A DNA stretch of 64,000 bases. Source: Acidiphilium multivorum AIU301 (GTDB taxonomy: Bacteria > Pseudomonadota > Alphaproteobacteria > Acetobacterales > Acetobacteraceae). The stretch lies in the NCBI RefSeq assembly GCF_000202835.1, contig NC_015186.1, forward strand, positions 2,667,001-2,731,000. Direction: 5' to 3'. This document shows positions 46,573 to 57,020 of the stretch, one piece after another (positions within the stretch are counted from its first letter, which is position 1; every line of letters begins with the position of its first letter). The position numbers were made by a program, and so were the translations under genes. Under the pieces are notes generated by a model, which saw nothing but the letters and a program-made list of their open reading frames with translations, searched no databases and had not been told where the DNA came from.

Positions 46573-46724
46573 AAGCCGTGATTGCCGATTTTCGCCCCGG
46601 GGATGAAATACCGATCGAACTCGATCCATGACTGCAACGATTCTGCGCGGACGACGCGATTATTTGCCGGCGCGGCGGATGCCGCCACCCTTGCCGAATG
46701 TCCGTCCGGGCGGCATACGACATT
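46573..46724. other. Non-coding stretch between the IS and the riboswitch
   Basis: It holds the expected promoter region of the riboswitch-metE transcript. Short open frames here have no family character. The IS left this side intact except for the duplicated CAATAAAC. Confidence 0.5.
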
Positions 46725-46940
46725 CGTCACCGGTCCCGCGCGAGCGGGTGAAAAGGGAACATCGTGCGCTTCGGCCGGGCTTCATTGTCCCGGAAGCAAG
46801 TCGATGGCTGCCCCCGCAACTGTCAGCGGCGAGCCGGTGGTCCGTCCGCCCGCAAGGGCGAGCCACTGAACCGGTAGCGGTTCGGGAAGGCAGGGCCACC
46901 AGCGTCGAGCCGCGAGCCAGGAGACCTGCCGGTGTCGCAC
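46725..46940 (+). ncRNA. Cobalamin riboswitch upstream of metE
   Basis: Core elements are readable in order: GGTGAAAAGGGAAC (from about 46747), the GCTGCCCCCGCAACTGTCAG core (46807-46826), the GGGAAGGCAGGGCCACC region (46884-46900) and the B12 box GCCAGGAGACCTGCC (46916-46930). A closing P1 stem pairs CACCGG (46728-46733) with CCGGTG (46929-46934). It precedes metE, so binding of adenosylcobalamin should turn off the cobalamin-independent enzyme when B12 is plentiful. The expression platform lies in the 140 bases before the start and is not resolved. Confidence 0.93.
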
Positions 46941-47083
46941 CAACCTTGCTGCCGGGCGGGGTGCACCGGAAGCCGGAGCCGACCCATGACTGCACGCATC
47001 AGCGGCAGCGCCTGCCGCGCGCGTCCTCTCGTTTCCCCCTCATCGCGCCGTTCGCGGTCCCACGCCCACCGGGGAGGCCGCGC

Positions 47084-55020: not shown

Positions 55021-55082
55021 TGCTCCGGTTATCAATATGATGGAGCACTACATCCGATCCGACAGGATCGGAAAGTGCTCTA
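55021..55082. repeat. Nested palindrome, REP-like intergenic element
   Basis: Outer arms GAGCAC (55043-55048) and GTGCTC (55075-55080) enclose inner arms CCGATCC (55054-55060) and GGATCGG (55065-55071). A second dyad, TGCTCC-N14-TGGAGCA, lies at 55021-55047. The outline AGAGCACTTTCCGATC, read on the minus strand, resembles dispersed repeats I have seen in alphaproteobacterial intergenic DNA. It sits between convergent genes, and the TAG stop of the minus gene is inside the repeat edge. Confidence 0.65.
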
Positions 55083-55823
55083 GCGCCGGTAGGTTTTAGC
55101 CAGCCTGGCCGGGTCGCGCCCGGCCAGAAACAGCGCCAGGCGGATGAGGTTTCCCGCGGCCCGGCGAAACCAGCCGTCGCGCTGGTAGGTCCGGGCGCTG
55201 GTCCCGATCACGAGATCCATCAGGGCGAGGCGGCGGCCGAGGCGGCGGGCCAGCGCGACATCCTCCATCAGCTTCAGGTCGGGCACGCCACCCAGCGCCG
55301 CGAGCAGGCGCGCATGGATCAGCAGGGACTGGTCGCCATAGGGCAGGCGAAAGACGCGGCACCGCCATCCCGCGAGGCGCTCGACGATCCGCGCGCGAAT
55401 ATCGCCCGACGCGAAGCGCAGCCTTCCATAATAGGCCCGCGCGGGGTCGGCCCGGGCGAGCGTGTCGCGGAGAGATTCCGCCCAGCCCGGCGGCAGTTCG
55501 CTGTCGGCGTGCAGGAGCCAGATCCAGCCGTCGGCGATCCGTTCGGCCCCGCGGCGAAGCTGGCCGCCGCGGCCGGGCGGACCTGCCACCACATCCGCGC
55601 CGTGACGCCGCGCGATGGACACGGTGTCATCCACGCTGCCGCCATCGGAGACGACGATGCGCGCGACGAGCGCCGGCGCCCCGGCCAGGACGGCCAGCAG
55701 GGCGCCAATGCGATGCCCCTCGTCGAGGGTCGGGATCACGACCGTGACGTGGGCGTCGGCCTGTAAGCATGCGTCCCGGCCGATCGGACTCTTTCTCCTG
55801 CCTGCGCGATTCGGTTGCGACAT
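55080..55823 (-). CDS. TIGR04283-like family 2 glycosyltransferase
   Basis: A 247-residue GT2 enzyme. It has VTVVIPTLDEGHRIGALLAV, the DGGSVDDTVSIARRHGADVV block, PPGRGGQLRRGAE and the acceptor region DGWIWLLHADSELPPGWAES. The C-terminus has LMEDVALARRLGRRLALMDL and KTYRR. The pattern RGxQLxxGA with LHADSxLP and MEDxxLxRRL is that of TIGR04283, a family named for arsenosugar biosynthesis but found in many settings. The product sugar acceptor is unknown. Its stop lies in the repeat element. Confidence 0.85.
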   Translation of the reverse strand: MSQPNRAGRRKSPIGRDACLQADAHVTVVIPTLDEGHRIGALLAVLAGAPALVARIVVSDGGSVDDTVSIARRHGADVVAGPPGRGGQLRRGAERIADGWIWLLHADSELPPGWAESLRDTLARADPARAYYGRLRFASGDIRARIVERLAGWRCRVFRLPYGDQSLLIHARLLAALGGVPDLKLMEDVALARRLGRRLALMDLVIGTSARTYQRDGWFRRAAGNLIRLALFLAGRDPARLAKTYRR

Positions 55824-55867: not shown

Positions 55868-55896
55868 AAAAAGGGCCCCGGATGACTCCGGGGCCC
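55868..55896 (-). terminator. Strong Rho-independent terminator (minus strand)
   Basis: A perfect 9-bp stem GGGCCCCGG (55873-55881 on plus) with CCGGGGCCC (55888-55896) is followed on the minus strand by TTTTTGT (55872-55866). It lies 138 bases after the stop of the last sugar-transporter gene and 45 bases before the glycosyltransferase start. Confidence 0.85.
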
Positions 55897-55940
55897 AGTT
55901 GGGAACAGGGAATTCAACGTCTGGGAGAAACGTTCATCCG
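55868..55940 (-). ncRNA. Candidate small RNA ending at the strong terminator
   Basis: About 70 bases lie between an FNR-like box (55971-55984) and the strong terminator, with no credible gene. If the box activates at -41.5, transcription would begin near 55937 with a weak TGTATC -10. The stretch includes TTTCTCCC, which could pair with ribosome sites. This is inference from spacing; no homologue was recognised. Confidence 0.35.
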
Positions 55941-55970
55941 GTTGATACAGGAGACGCGAGTGCTCCCGAT

Positions 55971-55984
55971 ATGACCTAGATCAA
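55971..55984 (-). promoter_or_regulatory. FNR/CRP-like palindrome
   Basis: The minus strand reads TTGATCTAGGTCAT; the consensus FNR site is TTGAT-N4-ATCAA. The left half matches fully, the right half is GTCAT. It lies 50 bases after the end of the sugar ABC operon and upstream of the candidate small RNA. Confidence 0.45.
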
Positions 55985-56033: not shown

Positions 56034-57020
56034 TCAACTCCTGCGCACCAGCCCGGTCTGGATCAGGACGGCCATCAGCAGGAAGAGGCCGGAGGCGAGG
56101 TTCTGGTAATACGAGCTGAGATTGCCGATCTGGTCGATCACGTTCTCGATGACGCCGAGCAGCAGCACGCCCGAGAGGGCGCCGGCCATGGTGCCGACGC
56201 CGCCGGTCAGCAGCACCCCGCCGATGACGGCGGCGGCGATCGAGCGCAGTTCGTCGCCCTGCCCCGCCGTCGACAGGCCGGAGGAGAGATGCGCGCCCAG
56301 CAGCGCGCCGGCGAGGCCCGCCAGCGTGCCCGACAGCACGTAAGTCGCGACCTTGACGGTGGCGACCGGGACACCGAGCATCCGCGCCGCCTCCTCGTTG
56401 CCGCCGATCGCGAACACGGCGACGCCGAAGCGCGACCGGTTCAGCACCAGCGCCGCCAGCGCGAAGCCGGCGAGCAGGATCCAGATCAGGTTGCCGACCC
56501 CGAGCAACGTGCCGTTGGCGATCTGGCCGAACAGGCCGGGGTGGAGGATGACCATGCTGCTCCTGGCCAGGACGAGGTCGAGGCCGCGCACGCCGAGCAG
56601 GGCGGCGAGCGTGACGATGAACGGCGCCATGCCGGCGCGGGCGATCAGCAGCCCGTCGATCAGCCCGACCGCCGCGCCCGCCAGGCAGGGCACCAGCAGG
56701 GCGGGCACCCAGCCATAGGGCACCGCATAGGCCGCCAGCACCGAGCCGAGGCCGATGACCGAGCCGACCGACAGGTCGAACCCGCCGAGAATGATCACGA
56801 AGGTCTGGCCGATCGTCACCAGGCCGACGAAGCTCGCCGCGACGCCGATATTCTCGAAATTGTTGACCGTCGCAAAATACGGGAAGACCGCGCTGGCGAT
56901 GATCGCGGCGATGGCGAGGACCACGATGGCGCCGCGCGACCGGATCAGCGCGATGATCCGCGCGCGGCGTTCGGTGTCCGGTGCTGCGATGCCCGCACCG
57001 GCGGCTGGCGCGCCGCTCAT
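56034..57020 (-). CDS. Sugar ABC transporter permease (YjfF/RbsC-like)
   Basis: A 328-residue permease of the ribose/galactose ABC family. Typical text is IGQTFVIILGGFDLSVGSVI, ALVLNRSRFGVAVFAIGGNE (the coupling loop) and LRSIAAAVIGGVLLTGGVGT near the C-terminus. It is the last gene of the cluster, the second of two permeases, like YjfF in the E. coli galactofuranose importer. Start overlaps the first permease stop (ATGA). Confidence 0.93.
   Translation of the reverse strand: MSGAPAAGAGIAAPDTERRARIIALIRSRGAIVVLAIAAIIASAVFPYFATVNNFENIGVAASFVGLVTIGQTFVIILGGFDLSVGSVIGLGSVLAAYAVPYGWVPALLVPCLAGAAVGLIDGLLIARAGMAPFIVTLAALLGVRGLDLVLARSSMVILHPGLFGQIANGTLLGVGNLIWILLAGFALAALVLNRSRFGVAVFAIGGNEEAARMLGVPVATVKVATYVLSGTLAGLAGALLGAHLSSGLSTAGQGDELRSIAAAVIGGVLLTGGVGTMAGALSGVLLLGVIENVIDQIGNLSSYYQNLASGLFLLMAVLIQTGLVRRS

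Follow-up and report, generated by a model that had tools for sequence, protein, structure and literature searches.

The window analysed here is a 64,000-nucleotide stretch of the Acidiphilium multivorum AIU301 genome. In this window, the interval 55868-55984 separates two genes that serve as context only, the last permease gene of a sugar ABC importer (BPD_transp_2; 56034-57020, minus strand) and a family-2 glycosyltransferase gene (55080-55823, minus strand). The feature described below is read on the same minus strand, and all of its elements lie within the interval. Its first element, 49 nt past the end of the permease gene, is an FNR/FixK-type box, TTGATCTAGGTCAT (55984-55971), which matches 10 of the 12 letters of TTGATC-NN-GATCAA, so that two half-site letters are off consensus. 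A spacer of 40 nt leads from the box to TTTCTCCC. When the spacer was aligned with that of a second species, a putative extended -10 element, TG TATCAA (55942-55949), became visible; its counterpart there is TG TATTGA. A promoter scan of 3 kb found no sigma-70 consensus -35/-10 pair. If the centre of the box is placed at -41.5, the spacing predicts a transcription start at 55936. It is followed by a 5' hairpin, AACGUUU-CUCCC-AGACGUU (55934-55916), whose CUCCC loop is anti-Shine-Dalgarno-like, then by the linker GAAUUCCCUGUUCCCAACU (55897-55915), in which sequence comparison marks a conserved UCCCUGUU core, and by an intrinsic terminator (55868-55896).

The terminator consists of a stem (55896-55873) of 10 pairs, 9 of them G-C, with a loop of 4, and of a TTTTT run that ends 44 nt before the start codon of the glycosyltransferase gene. 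Terminator-like sites number 2 in 3 kb, while shuffled sequences give an expectation of 0.9. The first-pass annotation had described a box, about 75 gene-free bases and a terminator with a 9-bp stem and TTTTT. All these elements were found, with 74 nt measured between the box and the stem; the terminator and its T-run stand as described, and only the stem had to be recounted to 10 bp. The predicted 69-nt RNA folds with -30.2 kcal/mol (z -4.5), and none of 200 shuffled sequences was equally stable; presumably, the terminator provides much of this stability. In the predicted fold, the CUCCC hairpin and the terminator are joined by a linker that forms no more than a weak stem of 4 pairs. At the gathering cut-off, Rfam finds only a cobalamin riboswitch in the window (46714-46947, plus strand, 108.5 bits), and the interval itself has no match.

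Conservation of the boxed unit

Using the intergenic DNA as a BLAST query against 60 relatives, we obtained matches in the A. multivorum genome itself (G000), in G008 and in a second species of the genus (G004); the match in G032 covers the terminator only. Other BLAST matches were set aside. Those in L004, L005/L013, L008, L009, L012 and L014 cover the terminator part of the query only (L004, L005 and L014 were read), and L007, L010 and L011, when read, proved to be without the unit. The G004 unit consists of a box, a TGTAT -10 element, a hairpin, the linker UUCCCUGUUCC and a terminator of different sequence, and its neighbour is an unrelated gene, encoding ornithine cyclodeaminase, which precedes it on the same strand. 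Thus, box, -10 element, hairpin, linker and terminator are all kept, which is the conservation of box and stem that the first-pass annotation had proposed to look for. The identity between the two copies is 12/14 in the box, 19/40 in the spacer and 33/42 in the body, the spacer and the body overlapping by 4 nt. In the G004 spacer, TCGGG after the box and TGTAT are retained, and the terminator stem is preserved by partly different letters. Without gaps, the identity is 22/60 in the 60 nt before the box and 10/60 in the 60 nt behind the T-run. The alignment score of the unit is 58 as compared with a maximum of 21 in 200 shuffles, and the 300-bp flanks score at the shuffle level (upstream 19 against a mean of 20.0, downstream 15 against a mean of 15.2). 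The fold of the G004 copy has a z of -2.7, with 3 of 200 shuffles equally stable. The box centre lies 43.5 nt ahead of the hairpin start in both copies; placing the box at -41.5 would put the 5' end just before the hairpin. Boxes with 10/12 and 11/12 letters, followed at equal spacing by TATCAA or TATTGA, would fit the geometry of an FNR class II promoter in the two species, the start being predicted from the box. In locus L003 the box reads TTGATCCAGATCAT (11/12 letters). G004 also has a small-RNA-like element on the minus strand (L038; G004:C37:10068-10142) with a CTCCTCCC stretch and a terminator after AACTG as in the window; it has no Rfam match at E up to 1.

The G008 contig agrees with the window at 99.6% identity in just its first 1,001 bp (L274, G008:C90, 1-1001) and shows no similarity after that. 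For this reason the G008 copy, judged by its sequence, is not independent evidence; it may reflect a recent transfer, misassembly or misbinning. The next frame on that contig (L002:1073-1711, minus strand) resembles a transposase by eye but has no Pfam match. The canonical RNA locus of G008, of the kind described below, matches the one of G000 over 116 bp only, with 90.5% identity. The independent evidence for the boxed unit is thus two lineages only. The exact pattern of the boxed variant occurs in 3 of the 13 genus genomes. A covariance model built from two sequences gave three matches with E <1e-21 among the 60 relatives, the next one having E 5.3e-4, and no additional strong match for the boxed variant. 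Its weak matches (E 5e-4 to 1) were mostly terminators; the one in G048 is a copy of the canonical type. When genome contigs of 84,980 species were scanned for the box plus body pattern, 10 stretches were found. Only two looked real, both from this genus (JAJZSY010000013.1 and JAJZBH010000055.1), and their sequences match the G004 and G008 contigs. The other eight were judged by eye to be chance matches, as they lacked the remaining parts of the unit behind the match.

A probable parent RNA across the class

The body of the window RNA resembles a small RNA, ACGUCUCCCAGACGUGAAGCCUCCCUGUU plus a terminator, of which a canonical copy is present in all 13 genus genomes. The core of the copy in the A. 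multivorum genome lies at G000:C6:2797788-2797813, outside the window and about 75 kb from the window copy; the locus as a whole (L078:2254-2319, minus strand, or G000:C6:2797753-2797818) has no Rfam match over the cut-off. A looser pattern for this RNA (TCTCCCAGA, a gap, TCCCTGTT) matched in 103 of 397 sampled genomes of the family and in 71 of 289 sampled genomes of the class (57 of 224 genera), with the A. multivorum genome included in the counts of 103/397 and 71/289. The same pattern read backwards gave one match in the family set (G124) and none in the class set. The commonest form, TCTCCCAGACGTGAAGCCTCCCTGTT, accounts for 55 of the 68 canonical copies that were read. A terminator of varying sequence stands behind it, and further hairpins can be seen by eye ahead of it (folding was applied to the A. 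multivorum copy only). G448, G500, G599, G605, G639 and G670 carry two or three canonical copies each.

The canonical RNA has a hairpin that corresponds to the 5' hairpin of the boxed copies. In 40 aligned copies, 97.1% of the cells of this hairpin are paired, and a compensatory change from C-G to U-A occurs in 2 cells; covariation is thin, with 4 of the 6 pairs invariant. The A. multivorum canonical copy folds with a CCC loop, as compared to the enlarged CUCCC loop of the boxed copy. We built a covariance model, R2, from the 40 canonical copies without any boxed copy. MAFFT left the terminators of different length unaligned, and the model therefore has no terminator pairs, so that its score in the window rests mainly on the hairpin and the linker. 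Over the 64 kb, R2 has a single match up to E 10, and this match is the window RNA (19.6 bits, E 0.0011). Thus, a model of the class-wide RNA alone finds the body for which a small RNA had been claimed. The G004 copy is matched weakly (E 0.031), and one of 12 alphaR8 loci scores nearly as high (E 0.045); for this reason, R2 by itself would be modest evidence for kinship. The boxed copies and the canonical RNA share most letters of the hairpin and linker, in the same order, which strengthens this evidence. The exact core GAAGCCUCCCUGUU is absent in the window RNA, where the core is GAAUUCCCUGUU, and no counterparts of the upstream hairpins were seen by eye upstream of the window copy. On these two grounds, the window RNA is not a canonical copy; it is very likely a diverged sibling (paralogue) of the canonical RNA.

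The box is what sets the window RNA apart from this parent, as far as sequence comparison goes. In a control set of 73 matches in loci L048-L127, the same offset was searched for TTGATCNNGATCAA. None of the 68 canonical copies scored above 7 of 12 letters, nor did L083, a chance match; the boxed copies, four entries from three genomes, reached 10-11 of 12. In the 4.2 Mb of the A. multivorum genome there are 21 distinct TTGATCNNGNTCAW sites (27 strand hits); hence the chance of finding such a site inside a given 200-bp gap is about 1 in 1000. The reversed pattern gave 0 matches in this genome, which is a weak control since the reversed pattern contains CTAG, a rare word in proteobacteria. Of the 21 distinct sites, 16 were inspected in addition to the one in the window. 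Their neighbours include frames for HSP20, LTXXQ, Nramp and an aldo/keto reductase, as well as a frame that has a CxxCH motif and no Pfam match. Several of the sites are inside long open frames in GC-rich DNA (e.g., L204, L205 and L208); the boxes at HSP20 and at the aldo/keto reductase fall within mechanically called frames, ahead of the domain. As a regulon, these sites are only suggestive. Perfect FNR/FixK palindromes were also seen in another genome (G011:C18:3185231, 3567523 and 3129550). In each case the palindrome begins 42 nt below the lower coordinate of an HTH_Crp_2 match, which in the third case scores under the cut-off, and shared control beside the regulator genes is possible.

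Regulator, proposed mechanism and rival explanations

The A. multivorum genome has 10 HTH_Crp_2 matches, 5 of them over the cut-off; one of the five is a GntR/FCD protein. An FNR-like protein of the Crp/Fnr type carries CAGCEARHIGLC, and another Cys follows later; the alignment puts both in register with FNR. When compared with solved chains, it is about equally close to FNR (E 3.3e-28) and FixK2 (E 3.1e-28). The CxxCx7C motif with a later Cys, taken as a sequence pattern only, is found in FNR-like proteins of G000, G004 and G008. The box cannot tell FNR from FixK, because a common consensus, TTGANCNNGATCAANG, is described for alphaproteobacterial FnrN and FixK sites (PMC4999443).

We consider it likely, with a probability of roughly 0.7, that the interval encodes an FNR/FixK-activated, anti-Shine-Dalgarno, trans-acting RNA of about 69 nt that is a rewired sibling of the class-wide RNA. 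The class-wide RNA would have been duplicated and rewired; the copy has the linker core UCCCUGUU and the hairpin, whose loop is CUCCC here, and it lacks the upstream hairpins. At low oxygen, an activator of the FNR/FixK type would bind the box at about -41.5 and recruit RNA polymerase to the TGTATCAA -10 element, as at a class II promoter. A start at 55936 with the box at -41.5 would put TATCAA at -11 to -6. Transcription would end at the terminator, ahead of the glycosyltransferase gene, giving an independent small RNA from about 55936 to 55868 on the minus strand. Most likely, its C-rich stretches would pair with purine-rich ribosome-binding sites of mRNAs and repress these targets at low oxygen, probably together with Hfq. 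This anti-Shine-Dalgarno model was adopted on the precedent of the alphaR8 RNA SisA, for which C-rich stretches are described as pairing upstream of start codons with Hfq (PMC12559287). As for the pairing seed, the first-pass proposal holds in part: CUCCC makes up the predicted hairpin loop, but the linker UUCCCUGUUCC, which is conserved to the same degree, is no weaker a candidate. Complements of the linker before an ATG gave 9 matches in G000, 17 in G008 and 6 in G004, and the backwards control gave 2, 4 and 0. With this one seed, no orthologous gene common to the genomes appeared among the 30 of 32 sites with a fetched locus.

The first-pass annotation had interpreted the arrangement as an independent small RNA controlled by oxygen or redox state. 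Preservation of the unit behind another gene in G004, with an equal box-to-hairpin distance, supports this; its anatomy was right and its meaning probably right. The small RNA could be real and paralogous while its box is used by a different member of the Crp/Fnr family, such as a FixK-like protein without an Fe-S cluster or a nitric oxide sensor, and the RNA would then answer a relay or nitric oxide signal. The number of HTH_Crp_2 matches, the Crp-type regulator L196, which has no N-terminal cysteine motif, and the consensus shared by FnrN and FixK (PMC4999443) all speak for it. However, G000, G004 and G008 each encode a regulator that carries the cysteine pattern of FNR, and we regard this variant as unlikely.

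Among named RNAs, the canonical RNA is most closely related to SorX, which in Rhodobacter is derived from a 3'-UTR. The window RNA could likewise be cut by an RNase from the sugar-importer mRNA, with the box incidental, given the short distance from the end of the same-strand importer gene to the box and given that the G004 unit also follows a same-strand gene. Yet in the two species the unit stands behind different genes, with the box and its distance to the hairpin preserved, which makes such an origin quite improbable. It is also very doubtful that the interval is just the terminator of the sugar operon without a separate RNA. The terminator would indeed end the importer transcript, but if it served the sugar operon alone, these parts would not recur at another locus; upstream of the stem, the hairpin and the linker are preserved next to a different gene and match the model of the class-wide RNA. 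We give almost no weight to the idea that the interval acts on the glycosyltransferase gene as its leader or attenuator. This gene is on the same strand and begins shortly behind the T-run, but in G004 the unit and the best glycosyltransferase match are on different contigs (C44 and C30), and the minimum-free-energy folds contain no competing antiterminator.

Comparison with known small RNAs

Like the canonical RNA, SorX of Rhodobacter (RF02784) consists of a 5' hairpin, a CCUCCCUGUU stretch and a terminator. The SorX model gives significant matches to canonical copies, with scores of up to 44.8 bits (E about 2e-9 per genome) and, in another scan, 43.8 bits. All copies seen stay below the Rfam cut-off of 46.6 bits, and membership was therefore rejected; the window copy has no match to this model up to E 10. 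Canonical copies have a CUCCC(A) loop, whereas the two SorX copies over the cut-off that were read have another loop without CUCCC(A). Six further loci (L215, L219, L220, L227, L231 and L236) are SorX-like and have the same CCUCCCUGU core and a hairpin without CUCCCAGA. Apparently, the family is therefore broader than the exact pattern shows.

The alphaR8 RNAs (RF00519 suhB, with MmgR and Caulobacter SisA-D) are built in the same way, from a weak hairpin, a C-rich anti-Shine-Dalgarno stretch and a terminator. Their siblings are reported to be at separate loci with different promoters, and their 10-mer is defined as UUUCCUCCCU (PMC12559287). This core differs from the window core GAAUUCCCUGUU; the 10-mer is absent from the window RNA, which reaches 21.1 bits against a suhB cut-off of 41, and we do not count it as a member. 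In the permissive Rfam scan of the interval, this suhB match was the top one, and SorY followed with 19.1 bits (cut-off 111). The G004 copy scores 31.2 bits with suhB, under the cut-off of 41, and canonical copies score 26-33 bits in 9 of the 14 loci scanned and up to 38.1 bits in whole genomes. The A. multivorum genome has four alphaR8/suhB copies over the cut-off (G000:C6:3519654, C6:3741875, C1:167668 and C1:253131). By its sequence, the canonical RNA is best described as SorX-related with an alphaR8-like design and, by the Rfam cut-offs, as a member of neither family. Our finding points to this parent RNA, which Rfam recognises in the scanned copies only through sub-threshold matches of the SorX/suhB type.

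A literature search by topic, with most subscription papers outside its scope, found no report of the window RNA and no directly FNR-activated small RNA of Alphaproteobacteria. Among the matches listed for a search by sequence string, which included one Bradyrhizobium transcriptome paper, none was by its title about a bacterial small RNA.

FnrS of E. coli is a small RNA that is activated by FNR and ends at a terminator of its own. The window RNA resembles it in this respect, with activation proposed here. FnrS has an Rfam model, whereas the window has no Rfam match at the gathering cut-off except for the cobalamin riboswitch. Tentatively, we suggest that a near-invariant anti-Shine-Dalgarno RNA of the class gave rise, in one genus, to a sibling with an FNR class II promoter, that is, to a direct branch like FnrS but of independent origin, in which the change from a CCC to a CUCCC loop may reach other targets; this wider scenario seems to us possible, at somewhat less than even odds. 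In Rhodobacter sphaeroides, PcrZ is described as a small RNA induced by low oxygen that depends on PrrA and FnrL, and the control by FnrL may be indirect (PMC8139620). The window RNA differs from PcrZ in having a box at the predicted promoter position. If our reading is true, a conserved small RNA has gained a new input, its regulatory core being duplicated and set behind an FNR box at a new locus, and the Alphaproteobacteria gain a candidate for a directly FNR-activated small RNA.
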